Part shown: positions 6,347 through 55,925 of the stretch, one piece after another
How positions within the stretch are numbered: position 1 is the first letter of the stretch
Layout of the letters: each line of letters opens with the position of its first letter
Source of the DNA: Alphaproteobacteria bacterium
GTDB lineage: Bacteria > Pseudomonadota > Alphaproteobacteria > Paracaedibacterales > CAITNM01
Direction: 5' to 3'
Assembly: GCA_947487955.1 (NCBI GenBank)
Contig: CANKYV010000006.1
Location: forward strand, 1-62,048
Length of the DNA: 62,048 bases
The notes under the pieces: generated by a model
Seen by the model: the letters and a program-made list of their open reading frames with translations, nothing else
Told to the model about the DNA's origin: nothing
Databases searched by the model: none
Position numbers and translations under genes: made by a program

Positions 6347-6408
6347 AAATTCAAGCAGAATTGATTATTTTAAGCTTGCATTTTTGGCCTTCATATCTAC
6401 ATATAGTG

Positions 6409-6414
6409 TATAAT
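6409..6414 (+). promoter_or_regulatory. Candidate -10 box for rnc
   Basis: A TATAAT hexamer sits about 120 nt upstream of rnc, with a weak TTGGCC 19 nt earlier. It is the best promoter-like sequence in the uup-rnc gap. Confidence 0.35.
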
Positions 6415-6535
6415 TTAAAATATTAGAGAATACATATTTAAGGTATGGTCTTTTTTTATTTTAGAAATTTTAACGCCTGGGCAAGGCACTTAACATAAGC
6501 ATTAAGATGCAACCTTATTTAATTATTAAAAGCTA

Positions 6536-7189
6536 ATGTTTGAAGATATTTTAGATCATTCTTTTAAAAGAAAAACCTTGCTAGCACAGGCACTTACTCC
6601 GCCAGTTTTGCAACAACGAAAACAAGGGAAAGCTTTTGAACGTTTAGAATTTTTAGGAGATCGAATTCTGGGGTTAGTTATTGCCGAAGCCTTGTACTCG
6701 CATTACACCCATGATGAAGAAGGTAAGCTTGCTAAACGGCTTTCATATCTAACGTCACGAGAGTTTTGTCATATCGTTGCAGAGCGTATTAACCTGGCAC
6801 AATTTTTACCCATTTCGGCAGATGAATTAAAAGGCACATCAATTCTTGCAAATTGCATAGAAGCAATTATTGCGGCTTTATACATTGATGGCAGAATGGA
6901 AGCGGCACAAAGTTTTATTCACAAATATTGGAAAAATGAAATTTATGCGTTGGAGGAATTGCCCAAAGATCCTAAAACTCTTGTACAAGAATGGGCCCAA
7001 AAGCGTGGCATGGATATTCCTGAATACATAGAAATTGAGCGTTCTGGCCCAGATCATGCTCCTACATACACTCTTAAAATTTCTTTAACAAATGGCCTAA
7101 CGGCCGTTGGTGAAGGTAAAAATAAGAAACTCGCAGAACGTAATGCAGCACAAAGACTTTGGAGTATTATTGATTCTGAGATAAAGTGA
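6536..7189 (+). CDS. rnc: Ribonuclease III
   Basis: The 217-residue enzyme cleaves double-stranded RNA in rRNA and mRNA processing. The N-terminal catalytic domain shows the signature FERLEFLGDRILGLVIAEALY (split here around residues 35-55), and the second metal-binding Glu lies in CIEAIIAALYID. The C-terminal dsRNA-binding domain (about residues 150-215) ends with KKLAERNAAQRLW. Length is normal for alphaproteobacteria. It precedes clpX and lon, a gene order that puts RNA and protein quality control side by side. Confidence 0.95.
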   Translation: MFEDILDHSFKRKTLLAQALTPPVLQQRKQGKAFERLEFLGDRILGLVIAEALYSHYTHDEEGKLAKRLSYLTSREFCHIVAERINLAQFLPISADELKGTSILANCIEAIIAALYIDGRMEAAQSFIHKYWKNEIYALEELPKDPKTLVQEWAQKRGMDIPEYIEIERSGPDHAPTYTLKISLTNGLTAVGEGKNKKLAERNAAQRLWSIIDSEIK

Positions 7190-7376
7190 CTAATAATGTT
7201 ATGAAATTTTTTTATTAGCACAAAAAATTAGCTATTGAGCCACCTATTTTATTAGCACTCAATGTTATCCACAAAAAAAGCCACTTTGGTTAACTATTTC
7301 TTGACTTTTGAGACGCATAGTTGAAGTATAGGGTGACGAATTTTGTTGCTGCTAATAAGTTTAATGTGGAGAAAAT

Positions 7377-8642
7377 ATGAGCAAATCTTCTGGTGATAGT
7401 AAAAATACTTTGTATTGCTCTTTTTGTGGAAAAAGTCAGCATGAAGTCCGTAAATTAATTGCAGGACCAACTGTATTCATCTGTGATGAATGCGTTGATC
7501 TTTGTACTGATATCATTCAAGAAGAAAATGCAGTTCCTCGTTTATTAACTGAAGGTGTCCCATCTCCTTTAGAAATTCGTAAGGTTCTTGATGATTATGT
7601 AATTGGACAAGAACATGCAAAAAAAGTTCTCTCAGTTGCTGTACACAATCACTATAAGCGTCTCAACCATAGTGGCCATAATGCCGGAGATGTTGAAATT
7701 GCTAAATCAAACATTATGCTGGTAGGACCTACCGGTAGTGGTAAAACCTTATTAGCACAAACTTTGGCACGTATTATTGATGTTCCTTTTACCATGGCAG
7801 ATGCAACCACACTAACTGAGGCAGGTTATGTAGGCGAAGACGTAGAAAATATTATTCTAAAGCTTCTACAGGCTGCTGATTATAATGTTGAACGAGCACA
7901 ACGCGGTATTGTTTATATCGATGAAGTTGATAAGATTTCCAGAAAATCTGATAATCCTTCAATCACGCGCGATGTTTCTGGTGAAGGAGTACAACAGGCG
8001 CTACTAAAAATTATGGAAGGAACGGTTGCTTCTGTCCCTCCTCAAGGTGGACGCAAGCATCCTCAGCAAGAATTTTTGCAAGTCGATACTACCAATATTT
8101 TATTCATTTGCGGAGGCGCCTTTGCAGGACTAGAAAAAATTATTGCTGGTCGTAAAAAGGGTAGTGGAATAGGATTTGGAGTAGATGTAAAAGGCCCGCA
8201 GGATCATAAAGTGGGCGAACTCTTACGTGATCTTGAACCAGAAGATTTGCTAAAATTTGGTCTCATCCCAGAATTTATTGGCCGTCTCCCAGTAGTTGCA
8301 ACATTGGGCGATTTAGATGAAGCAGCATTAGTTGAAATTTTATCTACACCTAAAAATGCGTTACTAAAACAATATGCACGTTTATTTGAAATGGAAGATG
8401 TAAAACTAACCTTTGAAAATGAAGCTCTTCATTCAGTCGCTCAAAAAGCCATTTTGCGAAAAACTGGCGCCAGAGGACTACGCTCAATTATGGAAAGTAT
8501 TTTACTTGATCCGATGTATGAGTTACCCTCAAGAGAAGATGTGGAAGAAGTTATCATTAATAAAAAAGTAGTGGAAGACAAGGGTGAACCCGTAGTTGTT
8601 CTAAAACAAGAAGAACCAAAACGTAAAGAGAGTGCACGTTAA
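7377..8642 (+). CDS. clpX: ClpX, ATPase subunit of the ClpXP protease
   Basis: A 421-residue AAA+ unfoldase. The N-terminal zinc-binding domain has Cys14, Cys17, Cys36 and Cys39. It is followed by GPTGSGKT (Walker A), [10 protein letters not shown] (Walker B), the pore-region GRKHPQQ loop and the IGFG loop used to dock ClpP. A good GTGGAGAAAAT leader precedes the ATG. The gene overlaps lon by one base (TAATG), implying co-translation. A clpP is not in this window although it usually lies directly upstream; rnc is there instead. The C-terminus is slightly extended and charged. Confidence 0.97.
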
Positions 8643-11074
8643 TGGCTAAGAAAAGCGAATTGCTTTCAATTACTCAAGGAGATCTATTTCCAGTATTGCC
8701 TTTGCGCGATATCGTAGTTTTCCCTCATATGATTGTGCCGCTTTTTGTAGGGCGTGATAAGTCAGTGTTGGCATTAGAAGAAATGATGGTTTCCAACAAA
8801 AAAGAACTTATATTAGTTACGCAAAAAAATCCTTCAGATGACAATCCAGAAGCTAAAGACCTATACTCGGTTGGAACACTTGGCACTTTGTTACAACTTT
8901 TAAAGCTTCCCGATGGCACTGTTAAAGTACTAGTTGAAGGCACTCAGCGTGTACGCCTAAACCAATTTGTTGATGACTCTCCTTTTTTCCAAGCTTATGG
9001 ATCAGTTATTACTGAAGAAGATGGTTCCGAAGAAGAATTAGAAGCACTCATACGTGCTGTGGTTTCACAGTTTGAGCAATACGTTAAACTTAATAGAAAA
9101 ATTCCACCTGAAGTTCTGGTAACTGTTAACCAAATTGCAGATCCAGCAAAACTTGCAGACACAGTTGCTTCTTATTTTAGCTTAAAAATTCCTGACAAGC
9201 AGATCTTACTTGAGACGGCCAATATTAGTAAGCGTTTAGAAAAAGTTCTTGGTTATATTGAAAGTGAAAGTGCTGTTTTACACGTAGAGAAGAAAATTCG
9301 TACTCGCGTTAAAAAGCAAATGGAAAAAACGCAACGTGAATATTACCTTAACGAACAGCTAAAAGCGATCAATCGCGAATTAGGTGAAGGTGAAGAAAGT
9401 AAAGATGAAATTGCTGAGTTAGAAGAAAAAATTAAGAAAGTAAAACTTAGTAAAGAAGCTAAAGAAAAAGCTCTTGCGGAAGTTCGTAAGTTAAAAACCA
9501 TGAATTCTTCGTCTGCAGAGTCCACAGTATTACGCAATTACTTAGATTGGCTTTTAAATTTACCTTGGAAACAGCGTAGTCGCACCAAGAATAATCTAAC
9601 CACAGCGGAAAATATTTTAAACAAAGATCATTATGGTCTTGATAAAGTTAAAGAACGTATCTTAGAGTACCTTGCTGTACAAGCACGAGTTGGAAAAGTT
9701 CGCGGTCAAATTTTGTGCCTAGTAGGCCCTCCAGGTGTAGGAAAAACCAGTCTCGGGAAATCACTAGCTAAAGCTACGGGTAGAAATTTTGTTCGTATCT
9801 CTTTAGGAGGTGTACGCGACGAATCTGAAATTCGAGGACATAGACGTACATATATTGGGTCTATGCCTGGAAAAATTATTCAAGGAATGAAAAAAGCAAA
9901 AGCATCAAATCCTTTATTCCTTCTAGATGAGATTGATAAACTTGGAAGTGACTGGCGAGGAGATCCTGCATCTGCATTGCTGGAAGTGCTAGATCCTGAA
10001 CAAAATTCTACGTTTAATGATCATTACCTGGAGGTTGATTATGACCTTTCTGACGTAATGTTTATTACAACAGCAAATACGCTAAAAATGCCTCAACCAT
10101 TGCTTGATCGTATGGAAATTATTCGTATTCCAGGTTACACAGAGGATGAAAAATTAGTTATAGCTAAACAGCACTTAATTCCAAAGCAGATGGAACAGCA
10201 TGGCTTAAAAGCAACTGAATTTTCGGTCAATGATGAAGCAATATTAACGCTTATTCGCAATTATACTCGTGAAGCAGGTGTACGCAGTCTTGAGCGCGAA
10301 GTTACTAATCTTTGCCGCAAAGTTGTCCGCGAAATTATGAGTGCAAAAGTTAAAAAAATTAAAATTAATAAAGAGAATTTAGGAAAATACGCCGGTATAA
10401 AACGCTTCAGATATGGACTAGCAGAGGAAAAAGATACTATTGGTGTTACAACAGGACTTGCTTGGACAGAATCTGGCGGTGAGTTATTAAGTATTGAAGC
10501 AGTTGTATTACCTGGAAAAGGCAAAACGCTAATTACCGGTAAACTAGGCGATGTAATGCAAGAATCTGTTCAAGCAGCGCTTAGCTACGTTCGTGCACGT
10601 TCAACGCAGTTTGGATTAAAACCAAGCTTGTTTGAACGTAAAGACATACATATTCATGTGCCAGAAGGAGCTATTCCTAAGGATGGTCCATCTGCAGGTA
10701 TTACAATGTGCACTTCAATTGTTTCCGTACTAACGGGCATTCCTGTATCAAAAGATGTTGCGATGACTGGTGAAGTTACATTGCGTGGTAATGTACTACC
10801 TATAGGCGGCTTAAAAGAAAAGCTACTTGCTGCTCACCGTGGAGGCGTTAAGACTGTAATTATTCCTTATGATAATGAAAAAGATCTTGCTGAAATCCCA
10901 GATAACGTCACAAAGGGCTTAACGATTATCCCCGTTAAGCACGTAGATGAAGTGTTACGACTAGCACTCTCTAGTGAGCTACAACCAATTGAATATTCAG
11001 AAGATGAAGAGGGAAATGAAAAAAGATCTGGCCTGACTGATAAAGAAACTTTAGCAAGTCAAACAGTACAGTGA
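8642..11074 (+). CDS. lon: Lon ATP-dependent protease
   Basis: An 810-residue LonA protease. The N-terminal substrate-binding LAN domain begins at [15 protein letters not shown]. The AAA+ module has GPPGVGKT (about residue 361) and FLLDEIDKL. The protease domain has the catalytic Ser in [10 protein letters not shown] and Lys in [10 protein letters not shown]. The start overlaps the clpX stop. Lon removes misfolded proteins and, in alphaproteobacteria, cell-cycle regulators such as CcrM and DnaA. No unusual residues were seen. The C-terminal tail after the protease domain is acidic and low complexity. Confidence 0.97.
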
Positions 11075-48501: not shown

Positions 48502-48696
48502 ATGAAACTTTTAGTATTAGCTTTTCTATTGACTGGTTTCAGTGTTTGTACTTTACAAGCATACACTGAAAAAGAAGCACGTAAAAAATGTTCTGAAGTA
48601 GGTGGCAGTATAAAATCTGGCGATAAAGAAGGACAATGCTGGGGATATAAAAAAGGTCGATCATTGCACTATCAATCATATGATCTTCCCCGTTAA
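48502..48696 (+). CDS. Small secreted Cys-containing peptide (copy 1)
   Basis: A 64-residue precursor: signal peptide KLLVLAFLLTGFSVCTLQA, then a basic mature part of about 44 residues with two Cys, the motif GGSIKSG and a C-terminal YQSY. The leader AAAGGATATTATT before the ATG is shared with the next gene, and the first 19 residues are nearly identical to it. Tandem paralogue of the gene at 48750. Could be a secreted bioactive or structural peptide; function unknown. Confidence 0.75.
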   Translation: MKLLVLAFLLTGFSVCTLQAYTEKEARKKCSEVGGSIKSGDKEGQCWGYKKGRSLHYQSYDLPR

Positions 48697-48749
48697 CACT
48701 TAAATTTATTTAATACATTTTTATAAAAAACCATAAAAAGGATATTATT

Positions 48750-48959
48750 ATGAAATTTCTAACATTAGCACTTTTATTGGCTGGTTTCAGCGTTTGCACT
48801 TTACAAGCTGCTGAGCAACAAACTCAAGCAGCTGTTGAGCAAGATGATGCAGCAGCAAAAGACAAAAAACTTAGAAAATGCGTTAGCTCAAAAGGTAGTA
48901 TAAAAAACGGGAAATGCATGAGAAAAGGTCAAGAATTGCAAGCATATTCTTACAAATAA
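48750..48959 (+). CDS. Small secreted Cys-containing peptide (copy 2)
   Basis: A 69-residue precursor with signal peptide KFLTLALLLAGFSVCTLQA, an Ala/Gln/Asp-rich spacer, then KCVSSKGSIKNGKCMRKG with two Cys and a C-terminal QAYSYK. The same ribosome site (AAAGGATATTATT) and the SIK-G core mark it as a duplication of 48502-48696. A strong terminator follows 7 nt after the stop. Confidence 0.75.
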   Translation: MKFLTLALLLAGFSVCTLQAAEQQTQAAVEQDDAAAKDKKLRKCVSSKGSIKNGKCMRKGQELQAYSYK

Positions 48960-52181: not shown

Positions 52182-52883
52182 TTATTGACTCATCATTGAG
52201 GTAAATTTTGAAACAGCATGTTCAGTCGTTTGCGCATTTAATTTTTTGCGGATGTTAGCTAAATGAAAGGCTGCAGTAGATCCAGAAATATTTAAGTTGT
52301 GACTTACTACTTTAATAGTTAATCCTTGCGCTTTTTGAGTAAGAAGTTCAATTTCACGGTCTGTTAAACACTCCAACGCTTGACTATCTTTTATAGTCGC
52401 TATCTTATTTGCACAAACGTTTGCCACTAAAGAAAGGGTATATAAAACTTCTGGGTGTAAAAATGCCTGATTCAGAACTGTTGTAAAACCGTGAAAAGTA
52501 GCATGAGGAATCAAAGGAATGGTAATTCCAGATTTTATACCAAAATCAAATGATTCTTCCATTAAAGTTTGCTGTATTGGCAAAAGATTATCAAAACCGT
52601 CAACGCTCCATTCAAATGGAACCGCTACTTTCTTTAGTGTACTGAACACAGGGTCACACAAATAATATCGTTCTTTTGTATAACGTTTTTCCCATTCTTT
52701 TGAGTACGTGTTGTGCACACAAAAAGATTCCGTAATTTTCTTCTTGCCTGAAAACACAGCAAGTGCAAACTGTTCAACATTAAAGTCATTACAAATGTTC
52801 TGAAAAATTTCAAAAACACCCTCATCAGACTGTGTAATGCTATTTATTTGCTCAATCGCAGCATTTATTCGCTTATTCAGCAT
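52182..52883 (-). CDS. LuxR-family quorum-sensing regulator (full length)
   Basis: A 233-residue protein with an autoinducer-binding domain and a C-terminal LuxR HTH. Ligand-pocket landmarks of LuxR/TraR are present: W64, Y68, D77-P78, W92 and the FDFGIKSG glycines (about 112-119). The HTH begins at LTDREIELLTQKAQGLTIK (about 173-191) and continues VSHNLNISGSTAAFHLANIR. A good AAAGGA site precedes the ATG. It lies at the end of the luxI-containing cluster, without a lux box directly ahead. It probably activates the three boxes in this island. Confidence 0.9.
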   Translation of the reverse strand: MLNKRINAAIEQINSITQSDEGVFEIFQNICNDFNVEQFALAVFSGKKKITESFCVHNTYSKEWEKRYTKERYYLCDPVFSTLKKVAVPFEWSVDGFDNLLPIQQTLMEESFDFGIKSGITIPLIPHATFHGFTTVLNQAFLHPEVLYTLSLVANVCANKIATIKDSQALECLTDREIELLTQKAQGLTIKVVSHNLNISGSTAAFHLANIRKKLNAQTTEHAVSKFTSMMSQ

Positions 52884-52976
52884 TTTTAATCCTTTATCTT
52901 ACAACTAGTACTAATTTTAAAAAAACTACTATAAGAAAATATTGCTAAGCTTTTATCGCTCCATACAAAAAAAATG

Positions 52977-53525
52977 TCAATCAGGTCTTCTTGAAAAATT
53001 TCGTTTGTCTTGCAAGGATATAATTTTGTTTGAGCAAACATTACCCACCAGAGAAAGCGTATACAAAACATCATGGTGTAATGATGATTGATTGAGCACG
53101 GTCACAAAACCATGAAAAGTAGCATAAGGAATCAAAGGAATTGTAATGCCAGATTTTATACCAAAATCAAATGATTCTTCCATTAAGGTTTGTTGTGTTG
53201 GCAAGAGACCATCAAAACTTTTAGTATCCCATTCAAAAGGAACAGCAACTTTCCGCAATGAACTAAAAACAGGATCGCATAAATGATATTGTTTCTCTTT
53301 ATAATGCTGTATCCACTCTTTTGAGTAAGTATTGTATATAGAAAATGATTCTGTGATATCTTTTCTACCTGAAAAGATTGCTAATGCAAATTTTTCAAAA
53401 TTTAAATCTAGGCAAATACCTTTAAACACAGCAAACACATCTTCTTCAAAATATTTCACAGCATCTATTCTCTCTAATGCGCTTTTTATTTTCTTATCAG
53501 CTAGCAGTTTTGTACCAGAGATCAT
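52977..53525 (-). CDS. LuxR-like autoinducer-binding protein lacking the HTH
   Basis: About 182 residues, closely similar over its length to the ligand-binding part of the adjacent LuxR: YSKEWIQHYKEKQYHLCDPVF, VPFEW, LMEESFDFGIKSGITIPLIP (motifs shown in part). It ends just where the other protein enters its HTH (KRNFSRRPD, stop). ATG at 53525 is preferred: GAGGTGAGTGAA precedes it; a GTG at 53534 is the alternative. A lux box lies 68 nt upstream. By analogy to TrlR/TraS-like truncated TraR it may form inactive heterodimers, but this is inference. No HTH remnant in another frame was evident. Confidence 0.85.
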   Translation of the reverse strand: MISGTKLLADKKIKSALERIDAVKYFEEDVFAVFKGICLDLNFEKFALAIFSGRKDITESFSIYNTYSKEWIQHYKEKQYHLCDPVFSSLRKVAVPFEWDTKSFDGLLPTQQTLMEESFDFGIKSGITIPLIPYATFHGFVTVLNQSSLHHDVLYTLSLVGNVCSNKIISLQDKRNFSRRPD

Positions 53526-53592
53526 TTCACTCACCTCTCACATAAGTACATTATGATTATCGGTAATCTAAAACGATTTTTAGGTTTTCTAA

Positions 53593-53612
53593 ACCTGTTA
53601 GATTATACAGGT
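53593..53612 (-). promoter_or_regulatory. lux box 1, upstream of the HTH-less luxR
   Basis: On the minus strand the 20-bp dyad reads ACCTGTATAATCTAACAGGT, with perfect 6-bp arms, extremely close to the canonical V. fischeri lux box (ACCTGT-N8-ACAGGT). Roughly 20 nt further on a TTTAGA/TTAGAT sequence sits where a -10 would be if the box overlaps the -35, as in LuxR-activated promoters. Confidence 0.88.
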
Positions 53613-53666
53613 AAAATGTTTTTAATTTGATGCTAACAAGAGTTGCACCAGTTTTTTCTAACATCA

Positions 53667-53798
53667 TATAGCCAGACTCATATAAATTGAGCACATAAAT
53701 TTAGATTGCTCGCAAAGACGTTAAATACTTAATTTTTGTCTTCGCGAGGAGCATAAGCGACGTGGCGATCTTATAATTAAATTGTAGTTCTGGCTATA
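53667..53798. repeat. Palindromic, MITE-like element
   Basis: TATAGCCAGA (53667-53676) and TCTGGCTATA (53789-53798) form 10-bp terminal inverted repeats around a 132-bp element. Inside are AGATTGCTCGCAAAGACG (53703-53720) and an inverted partner from 53738 to 53771, containing GCGAGGAGCATAAGCGACGT. Similar GC-rich palindromes are scattered in Rickettsiales and related genomes. No coding capacity. Confidence 0.65.
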
Positions 53799-53880
53799 CT
53801 CTAGGCTTCTAAATCATCATCTTGAGCCCTTAAGAAGGCGTGAAAATCCAGTAAGTAATTTCAATGTTGAAATAATAAAA

Positions 53881-53920
53881 CTGGACCCTCACGAGAGCTA
53901 TGCTCCCTCAGGGTGACGAG
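53881..53920. repeat. Palindromic repeat with GGACCCT/AGGGT arms
   Basis: GGACCCTCACGAGAGCTATG followed by CTCCCTCAGGGTGACGAG forms an imperfect dyad of the dispersed type found in obligate intracellular alphaproteobacteria. It sits between box 1 and the small coiled-protein gene. Confidence 0.55.
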
Positions 53921-53970
53921 TTTCTAAGCAACTTTATTCCGGACAGCAGTGCAGACACGCCAGTGACAAA

Positions 53971-53994
53971 CTCTGCCGAGGATTTTAGGCAGAG
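53971..53994. repeat. Short hairpin CTCTGCC/GGCAGAG
   Basis: A 7-bp perfect stem around GAGGATTTTA. It lies 88 nt beyond the small gene's stop in transcription order and may be part of a third dispersed palindrome; no T-run. Confidence 0.4.
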
Positions 53995-54081
53995 CACGTA
54001 AATCTATTCAAAAATATTTATTGGAAAGGGATCAAGAAACAAATGCAAACTCATTCCCCGTATTTTTTTTATAAGCAAGTC

Positions 54082-54267
54082 TTACTGAAGCTCTTCCTTA
54101 AAAAGCTCATCCATCATTTTACTTTGAGCATCTAAAATTCTTATTTCTTTCAAAACTATTTCTGTTTTTTGAAGTTCGTTTATATTCATTTTCTTCATCC
54201 CCTTACTCTGCTGACTATCTTCAGTTTTTTGCTGACTATTTTCGATATTTTGCACTGCATCCACCAT
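54082..54267 (-). CDS. Small coiled protein in the lux cluster
   Basis: A 61-residue protein, Gln/Ser/Lys-rich at the N-terminus and helical at the C-terminus (ELQKTEIVLKEIRILDAQSK). A strong AAGGAG site precedes the ATG-GTG start (AAAAGGAGAAAAAAGTCC). It follows the lux-box-controlled membrane gene on the same strand by 93 nt, so it may belong to the same regulon. Function unknown. Confidence 0.6.
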   Translation of the reverse strand: MVDAVQNIENSQQKTEDSQQSKGMKKMNINELQKTEIVLKEIRILDAQSKMMDELFKEELQ

Positions 54268-54360
54268 GGACTTTTTTCTCCTTTTGATTCCAATAACCTA
54301 TTGATATCAAGTATTTTTATAATTTTTATCCAATAAAAAATTGTTATTTATACTTATACT

Positions 54361-54885
54361 CTAATTCGAATAAGATAGGAAATAATTTTTTTGTCTTACA
54401 AATTGCAAAAATTCTACCCCCAGTTTAGTTAAACAAATTTTTCCAGCTTGTACTTGAATAAAATTTGAATTTTTTAAAAAATTAAGCCATGTAAAAAATG
54501 CTGGCATATTTTTATGAGCAGTTGAAACATTTTTTGCAAATATCTGGTAGATATCTTTCTCAGAAAAAGCAACTCCGTAATGAAATTCAAGGTATTCTAA
54601 TAATTTAATATGACTTCTAGAAACACGCTTATACGTATTTTCATAATAAGCCACTTTCTGCAATACGCATTCTTTATCTCCAGTCTTGCCATTTAGAGAA
54701 ACAGCCTTTAAATGCGGACTGACTAAATTTATCTTGTTAGCGTTGGCTTTTTTTTCATTGAACTGCACCTGCATTTTGCATACCAGAGGCCAAGCAATCT
54801 GCGTTATACAATAGAAGCAAGCTATAACAACACATCCACCTGCAATAAAACGTAGCAAGAAAATTTTCAAGGTTTTTGCCATCAT
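54361..54885 (-). CDS. Membrane protein with winged-helix-like C-terminus, lux-box controlled
   Basis: A 174-residue protein: one N-terminal transmembrane segment (FIAGGCVVIACFYCITQIAW, residues about 13-32), a Lys/Asn-rich linker, and a C-terminal domain (about 85-165) whose helices plus strand pair (NFIQVQAGKICLTKLGVEFL) look like a winged helix. Two ATGs are adjacent; GGAGATGA makes the second (54882) equally good. Lux box 2 lies 58 nt upstream. No family recognised; perhaps a membrane-tethered regulator or effector of quorum sensing. Confidence 0.6.
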   Translation of the reverse strand: MMAKTLKIFLLRFIAGGCVVIACFYCITQIAWPLVCKMQVQFNEKKANANKINLVSPHLKAVSLNGKTGDKECVLQKVAYYENTYKRVSRSHIKLLEYLEFHYGVAFSEKDIYQIFAKNVSTAHKNMPAFFTWLNFLKNSNFIQVQAGKICLTKLGVEFLQFVRQKNYFLSYSN

Positions 54886-54943
54886 TCATCTCCGTTTCTA
54901 AAGTTCCGTGATGAGTTTTAGCTTGAATTGACTAATATTTAAA

Positions 54944-54963
54944 CCTGTTACTTTATACAGTTA
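54944..54963 (-). promoter_or_regulatory. lux box 2, upstream of the membrane-protein gene
   Basis: On the minus strand: AACTGTATAAAGTAACAGGT. It matches boxes 1 and 3 at 15 or more of 20 positions, sits in the gap between luxI and the next gene, and has CTAAAA about 20 nt downstream as a weak -10 candidate. Confidence 0.85.
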
Positions 54964-54978
54964 TTTCTAGAATTATAG

Positions 54979-55602
54979 CTAACCTTGACCTTGTAAAATA
55001 TAAACAGGTTCGTTGGCAGGAAGATTTATTTTATCTAATAGCTTAGAATATGACTCGGCTAGCGGTGAATATTCCGTTACGTGTATTTCTTCATTATTAA
55101 CAACGCTACGAGCTAAAAGTGATGTTGAAAAAAACTGGGAAAGAATCCTCGCTGGAGAGGGATAAGAAAGTGTCACAAAGCTTTTAATCTCTGCGTCTAA
55201 ACCAAACAAAACTGAAGCCGCTAATATTCTACAGCACACATTCTTTGCATCTTCTTTTGTATAACCTTCAGCAAAATCGTAGTCAACAGCCATACGACTC
55301 GCTTCCCAATGCTGCGCGTTCTTATAGTCTTTTAAATTTGATAATACAAAATCAAAAGGACCATCAAACATACAAGGGTTATTCATAGGAATATAACGCT
55401 GACACCCCCTAACAATGTTATTTTTGTCCTTAAAAATTAAATAATATGTATTATTTTCATCATACTCATCTTTTTCCATACCATCTTCACTGTTAACCTG
55501 CCACTTCAATTTTTCAAAAAATACCTTATGACGAAGCCTGTACATTGCATCTAGATCATCGCGGTGTGTAGAATACTCATTGGGTGTAATTAGATAAACC
55601 AT
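54979..55602 (-). CDS. LuxI-family autoinducer synthase
   Basis: A 207-residue acyl-homoserine-lactone-synthase-type protein. All diagnostic residues occur at near-canonical numbers: R24, F28, W34, D45, D48, R69, F83, E100 and R103 (motifs RLRHKVFFEKLKW, GMEKDEYDEN, GCQRY and WEASRMAVD). These synthases join SAM with an acyl-ACP or acyl-CoA. The acyl side chain cannot be predicted. Lux box 3 lies 240 nt upstream, so autoinduction is likely. First gene of the minus-strand quorum-sensing cluster. Confidence 0.92.
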   Translation of the reverse strand: MVYLITPNEYSTHRDDLDAMYRLRHKVFFEKLKWQVNSEDGMEKDEYDENNTYYLIFKDKNNIVRGCQRYIPMNNPCMFDGPFDFVLSNLKDYKNAQHWEASRMAVDYDFAEGYTKEDAKNVCCRILAASVLFGLDAEIKSFVTLSYPSPARILSQFFSTSLLARSVVNNEEIHVTEYSPLAESYSKLLDKINLPANEPVYILQGQG

Positions 55603-55925
55603 AAAAATACCTGTTATCGTTAGATGAGCTATATTTAGTGATAGTTATTTGTAATTTCAACTGTTTAAATAAATAGGAAAAAACAAAATAAACATTTTTT
55701 ACACTATAAAATATATAAAATTGAACTAAATAATTTTAAAAAAAATATAATAAAATAAATTACGAAAATATTAACACTAAAGATATAAGAATTTTTTTAC
55801 TTTTTTAGAAAATCTATATAATCAACTAAAAAATTTTTAACTACCTGTATAATTATACAGTTCAGATCTGCTTATGGGGTATAATTAAACAGAAGGCTAA
55901 AAACTTAAGATGCATTCTTAAAATT
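55603..55925. other. Long AT-rich leader region of luxI
   Basis: No gene is present. It contains lux box 3 and about 180 nt of extremely AT-rich sequence between the predicted promoter and the luxI start, so luxI mRNA would have an unusually long 5' leader. The luxI ribosome site (AACAGGTATTTTT) includes a lux half-site-like ACAGGT, probably by chance. Confidence 0.6.
55843..55862 (-). promoter_or_regulatory. lux box 3, upstream of luxI
   Basis: On the minus strand: AACTGTATAATTATACAGGT, with a perfect 16-bp inner palindrome CTGTATAATTATACAG. Twenty nt downstream is ATTATATAG, a good -10 position for a LuxR-type promoter whose box overlaps the -35. Confidence 0.88.

Follow-up and report, generated by a model that had tools for sequence, protein, structure and literature searches.

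The window analysed here is the whole of a 62,048-nucleotide (nt) stretch, contig C6 (CANKYV010000006.1) of a draft alphaproteobacterial genome from the Paracaedibacterales (CAITNM01; GCA_947487955.1, here G000; 1,548,166 bases, 98.4% complete). On its minus strand lies a predicted quorum-sensing island, with a gene for a putative acyl-homoserine lactone (AHL) synthase (luxI), a full-length luxR (luxR1), a luxR lacking the helix-turn-helix (HTH) domain, a membrane-protein gene and three 20-bp dyads of lux-box type (class A; a second class, B, is described below). Eleven genomes of the genus were compared; luxI occurs in three of them, G000 itself, G005 and G009, and in none of the other eight, among which G008 (76%) and G010 (89%) are less complete. 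The features of the island are the following.

52182..52883, minus strand: luxR1, full-length LuxR, predicted reader of class A boxes (PF03472, 70.9 bits; PF00196, 42.9 bits)
52977..53534, minus strand: HTH-less luxR (PF03472, 75.5 bits; no GerE)
53593..53612, minus strand: class A box before the HTH-less luxR, 58 nt 5' of its GTG start
54082..54267, minus strand: small open reading frame (ORF) of 61 amino acids (aa), 3' of the membrane-protein gene
54361..54885, minus strand: membrane-protein gene, 174 aa, whose N-terminal helix is hydrophobic (predicted anchor) and whose C-terminal part resembles a winged helix
54943..54962, minus strand: class A box before the membrane-protein gene, 57 nt 5' of the start
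54979..55602, minus strand: luxI, predicted AHL synthase, 207 aa (PF00765, 98.5 bits; cut-off 24)
55632..55660, minus strand: promoter-like TTGAAA-N17-TAAATA near luxI, similar in G005 and G009, chosen post hoc by regular expression and without statistics
55843..55862, minus strand: class A lux-type box before luxI, AACTGTATAATTATACAGGT, 240 nt 5' of the start codon

A first-pass annotation of this DNA had placed a LuxI, a full LuxR and an HTH-less LuxR on one strand, and Pfam confirmed all three families. LuxI exceeds the cut-off of the autoinducer-synthase family and carries its conserved residues: across 13 aligned sequences from the order R24, F28, D45, D48, R69, E100 and R103 never vary and W34 hardly does, and all eight residues named in that annotation are in place. 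Its profile also matches LasI (1ro5, 5.1e-19). LuxR1 has both the signal-binding domain (Autoind_bind) and the GerE HTH above cut-off, whereas the HTH-less LuxR has the signal-binding domain alone and measures 182 aa if translation starts at the ATG at 53525, or 185 aa from the GTG at 53534. No Pfam or NCBIfam family matched the membrane protein, which has homologues in G005 and G009 plus three proteins besides its own record. The best PDB matches of its structural model (predicted local distance difference test, pLDDT, 73.4) are MarR-type regulators at E 2.6e-3, none reaching 1e-3 or below, so that the model may hint at a weak winged-helix likeness and at nothing more. At the same place as the small ORF, G005 and G009 have 60-aa ORFs whose C-terminal end is similar by eye. 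An RNA-family search of the window returned two tRNAs and nothing else. Elsewhere in the window, at 48502-48959, two neighbouring small ORFs (64 and 69 aa) have N-termini that are alike and signal-peptide-like.

The three dyads lie where the first-pass annotation had put them, before the HTH-less luxR, the membrane-protein gene and luxI. Their arms are, as it had also claimed, those of the Vibrio fischeri lux box, ACCTGTAGGATCGTACAGGT, a string that occurs in three papers. The window holds six class A matches at ≤3 mismatches where 0.32 are expected, and none of 100 shuffles gets to six, a count that is partly circular because the pattern was built from these same three sites. The independent test is the genome-wide one. 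At the same threshold G000 has 25 strand matches against three for the reversed pattern; G009 stands out as well (22 against one), and the eight luxI-less congeners have 0-8 against 2-16 in the control. At ≤1 mismatch, class A is found at seven places in G000, six in G009 and two in G005, the window's own three being among these 15, and at none in the luxI-less congeners. The scan that the first-pass annotation had called for speaks against random AT-rich palindromes of equal frequency throughout the genome; at this threshold the 20-bp dyads lie 5' of genes and are confined to the luxI genomes, which form one clade. All 15 places are intergenic within the fetched stretches, compared with 9.8% of positions drawn at random, and in eight of them the box is followed by a start codon at 40-75 nt (background 19.7%, p 0.004); in five class A genes across two genomes the box stands 57-58 nt 5' of the start. 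The HTH-less luxR box has a counterpart at the orthologous place in both G005 and G009, and the membrane-protein gene of G005 likewise has its box at 57 nt. Boxes are kept at orthologous places though the surrounding DNA diverges. Site statistics for both classes use sites at ≤1 mismatch only, and the eight stretches left out of them (L061, L064, L154, L156, L158, L159, L161 and L162) hold no listed site at that threshold; at 2 mismatches some box sites fall within genes.

A second dyad, ACCTATA-N6-TATAGGT (class B), occurs at ≤1 mismatch at six places in G000, eight in G009 and six in G005, and at one in the eight other genomes together, while its reversed pattern gives one place in all 11; at 2 mismatches G000 has 28 strand matches against 12. 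Nineteen of the 20 class B places are intergenic (background 9.8%), and 9/19 are followed by a start codon at 40-75 nt (background 19.7%, p 0.006). Both classes are 20 bp long with the same outer ACCT/AGGT, and one G009 site pairs a class A arm with a class B arm. At luxI itself, the box of G005 stands 244 nt from the start and has B-type arms; G009 has both arm kinds, its box at 246 nt being accompanied by one of class B at 277 nt. A class B box lies upstream of an unlinked full receptor, LuxR2, in 3/3 luxI genomes, across which LuxR2 is 71-83% identical. The recognition helix of LuxR2 is ATITFHLKNI in all three and differs from those of LuxR1, which are STAAFHLANI (G000), STVAFHLDSV and STAAFHLSNV. 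We infer that LuxR2 would be the reader of class B boxes. One class B 20-mer, ACCTATAACATTTTATAGGT, is identical in all three luxI genomes (L163, G009:C16:91819; L168, G005:C11:1118; L058, G000:C1:71012), and the genes beside it are without demonstrated orthology. In G000 a third full LuxR is divergent from an effector-like protein of 1136 aa that contains leucine-rich repeats and matches Ulp1-type (C48) peptidases; the pair occupies 6382-9792 (minus) and 10228-10971 (plus) of L055 (G000:C24) and is separated by a stretch with a weak class A site (3 mismatches).

The gene order of the window (luxI, membrane protein, small ORF, HTH-less luxR, luxR) is repeated in G005, with two copies of the HTH-less luxR, and in G009. 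In both, the island is flanked by ftsA on the receptor side and by tmk-like genes on the luxI side. In G001, G003 and G004, ftsA adjoins a prepilin-peptidase-like gene and then tmk (with an extra gene in G001 and G004) and there is no island; in G002, also without an island, the contig ends at the prepilin-peptidase-like gene next to ftsA. The names tmk, prepilin-peptidase-like, grx and lpd were given by eye from translations, with no family search. In an FtsA and Lpd tree of ten genomes, G008 having no ftsA match, the three luxI genomes form one clade (100/99), so the simplest reading is a single gain in their ancestor. Outside the genus luxI is present in 13 of the 31 genomes sampled from the order, and luxR is convergent at five of nine luxI loci; at one locus, L080, an 88-aa ORF matches part of the signal domain. 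Loci L078, L079 and L080 of these other genera have luxI genes in tandem pairs. A luxI search of viral DNA gave one viral contig (34% match over 78 residues). The island of G009 (L073, G009:C6, 3408-4572) has two additions separating its small ORF from its HTH-less luxR: a GIY-YIG-like ORF, named by eye, and a stretch of repeated MELDPDLRRGDDLALCRP-type frames. In G005 (L161, G005:C27, 4404-5119, minus strand), a LuxR relative is broken into two ORFs, one for the signal domain (154 aa) and one for the HTH (75 aa), with an intact copy adjacent.

Beyond the three genes of the island, class A boxes precede DksA-like genes (two in G000, one in G005), a gene for a methyltransferase (G005, G009) and one for a phosphatidylethanolamine-binding protein. 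They also precede three giant genes, each 320-321 nt from its box: one in G000, which matches DUF637 and runs to 2218 aa or more within the fetched stretch, and two in G009, whose homology to that of G000 is not demonstrated. Class B boxes precede LuxR2, an HD-only RelA/SpoT-like gene divergent from LuxR2 in G000 and G005, and genes that are PLD-like (G000, G009), of Sel1-repeat type (G000) and transporter-like (G005). The DksA-like proteins exceed the PF01258 cut-off and fall below that of the DksA equivalog (a partial match), and the match of the HD-only protein is also partial, spanning 146 of the 687 positions of TIGR00691. Neither kind of gene can be called quorum-specific: luxI-less congeners have both, and therefore only their boxes are tied to the luxI genomes. 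Control of a secretome was likewise considered and is unproven; by our own crude predictor, 8/25 class B targets are signal-peptide-like against 58/342 other genes (p 0.10), and 2/20 class A targets are (p 0.55). The first-pass annotation had called the island complete. A LuxI/LuxR island with real lux-type boxes is well supported, and what the annotation missed are the small ORF, the unlinked full receptors, the class B boxes and the further predicted targets.

The HTH-less LuxR is 64% identical to LuxR1 (P0006), and 17 proteins were found with it as query, of which seven, its own record included, lack GerE and measure 167-187 aa. The pocket residues W57, Y61, D70, P71, W85 and G113 (TraR numbering of PMC4338825) are present in all six aligned HTH-less sequences, and in nine of ten when four read by eye are counted. 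In a 34-row tree the HTH-less proteins fall into two groups, of eight rows (91/93) and two rows (93/87); the smaller sits with a full receptor inside a starred fork, and the starred branches force at least two changes. That tree excludes the receptor of L080, the partial receptors (G000 C43, G005 C20:104428 and the split receptor at G005 C27) and the weak matches found in G001, G002 and G004. HTH-less LuxRs thus arose at least twice in the tree.

Taken together, these results make it quite probable that the window carries a chromosomal LuxI/LuxR feedback island in which the HTH-less LuxR would serve as a dominant-negative brake. The AHL predicted for LuxI would likely cause LuxR1 to bind the three lux-type boxes, and this binding would switch on luxI, the membrane-protein gene and the HTH-less luxR. 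Positive feedback would run through luxI, and the HTH-less receptor, its signal pocket retained and a box of its own before its gene, would supply negative feedback; unlinked LuxR2, reading class B boxes, would form a second branch. Outputs of the circuit may include DksA-like proteins, the HD-only RelA/SpoT-like enzyme, the methyltransferase and the giant proteins. The HTH-less LuxR would probably brake by pairing with LuxR1 into inactive dimers, since pairing of such a protein with a full LuxR has precedents in TrlR and CerN: TrlR is an HTH-less TraR of Agrobacterium that forms inactive dimers (PMC13043044), and CerN-AHL antagonises DNA binding by CerM, which binds DNA without AHL (PMC11655674). 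A broader proposal, on which we place less than even weight and which is best taken as tentative, is that in an intracellular symbiont a single LuxI supplies two receptors, each with a DNA code of its own (CTGT/ACAG or CTAT/ATAG), that host-cell crowding is wired to transcription control of DksA type and by alarmone hydrolysis, and that HTH-less receptors, repeatedly evolved beside luxI, cap the response.

The brake could be of another kind. The HTH-less LuxR may be a sponge for AHL, or it may resemble CerN and release a LuxR that binds DNA without signal, the boxes then being repressor sites relieved at high density. Such a reading, which we consider somewhat unlikely, would agree with the six pocket residues kept in 6/6 aligned sequences, with the CerN precedent in an alphaproteobacterium, and with the suggestion, in survey PMC4338825, that stand-alone signal-binding domains may sequester ligand. 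The degree of kinship between the two receptors points the other way: identity is 31% for CerN/CerM and 88% for TrlR/TraR (PMC11655674), and the 64% of the present pair is nearer the latter. That the class B dyads are sites of an unrelated, clade-specific regulator outside the quorum system is less likely still. Any clade-specific motif would co-occur with luxI in genomes that form one clade, no family is common to those class B targets that were searched, and the box stands nearer to the gene divergent from LuxR2 than to LuxR2 itself; however, class B boxes lie upstream of LuxR2 in 3/3 genomes, B-type arms stand before luxI in 2/3, and the two classes share their length and outer bases and meet in the mixed-arm site of G009. 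As for a decaying remnant with no present function, the small genome and the G005 LuxR relative split into two ORFs could be cited in its favour, yet the frames are intact in three genomes and the boxes are kept amid diverging DNA. Moreover, the ratio of nonsynonymous to synonymous substitution (dN/dS) is low for luxI, luxR1 and the HTH-less luxR (0.15-0.18 against G009 for the last, indicating purifying selection), although synonymous sites are near saturation (dS >1). We regard the remnant as very improbable.

Several observations nonetheless weigh against the LuxI/LuxR feedback island with its HTH-less brake. The first-pass annotation had placed each box about 20 nt before a plausible -10 element, and this could not be confirmed: the TATAAT-like excess of class A at offset +22 is no stronger than at +1 or +3, and the element is not significant, with 52/500 shuffles equal for class A and 464/500 for class B. 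At ≤3 mismatches class A is weak in G005 (14 against 9 in the control); the membrane-gene box of G009 is degenerate (4 mismatches), no box at ≤3 mismatches is listed near the DksA-like gene of G009, and that genome has no HD-only gene. A start codon within 350 nt is no commoner for class B (16/19) than for random intergenic positions (81.6%), and the class B box beside LuxR2 stands 79-94 nt from the divergent gene but 151-286 nt from LuxR2. The HTH-less relative P0003 has, by eye, Arg for pocket Trp85. In other genera of the order, none of nine luxI loci has a class A box and none has a full-length HTH-less luxR. Finally, the 11 genus genomes are all drafts of at least 30 contigs, and the co-occurrence of boxes and luxI (Fisher 0.006, kinship ignored) may be a single evolutionary event because the luxI genomes are one clade.

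By comparison with known systems, the LuxI/LuxR gene set is well conserved and of an already known kind, with a function that is predicted. It resembles the V. fischeri type in its synthase, its receptor, a 20-bp box with the same arms and a box before luxI; it differs in the box-preceded HTH-less receptor and membrane-protein gene, in the 240-246 nt between box and start of luxI, and in the second box class beside a second receptor. Like TrlR, the HTH-less LuxR consists of a signal-binding domain alone and is similar in sequence to a full receptor. Unlike TrlR, it lies in a luxI/luxR island, has its own lux-type box, is found in three species and belongs to a type that arose at least twice. 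With CerN/CerM of Cereibacter sphaeroides it shares an alphaproteobacterial setting and a predicted action on a full LuxR, but that pair is far less alike and CerM binds DNA without AHL. The unusual traits are thus the HTH-less receptor inside a box-bearing island and the second box class beside the second receptor.

The source organism is likely intracellular, as the first-pass annotation had supposed, and the support for this is indirect. Known members of the order are intracellular symbionts of protists. Relatives from the order carry the names Holosporales and Candidatus Paracaedibacteraceae, the genome is of 1.55 Mb, and all 11 genus genomes have a match to the ADP/ATP-translocase family (PF03219) above cut-off (21); eight have a copy of 467-577 bits, and G000 has a low-scoring copy alone (66 bits). 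Quorum sensing in host-dwelling symbionts of other lineages is discussed for Sodalis praecaptivus in tsetse (PMC7449468) and Burkholderia rhizoxinica (PMC3102044). For the present order (Holosporales, Paracaedibacter, Odyssella), no report of a LuxI/LuxR/AHL system was found among titles and abstract beginnings, a search outside which most subscription papers fall.

If the system were to report density within a host cell, as the first-pass annotation suggested it could, symbiont load would become a measurable and perturbable input. From the comparison of three genomes come a predicted regulon, two pairs of receptor and box that are open to testing in E. coli, and a natural example of the repeated origin of HTH-less receptors.

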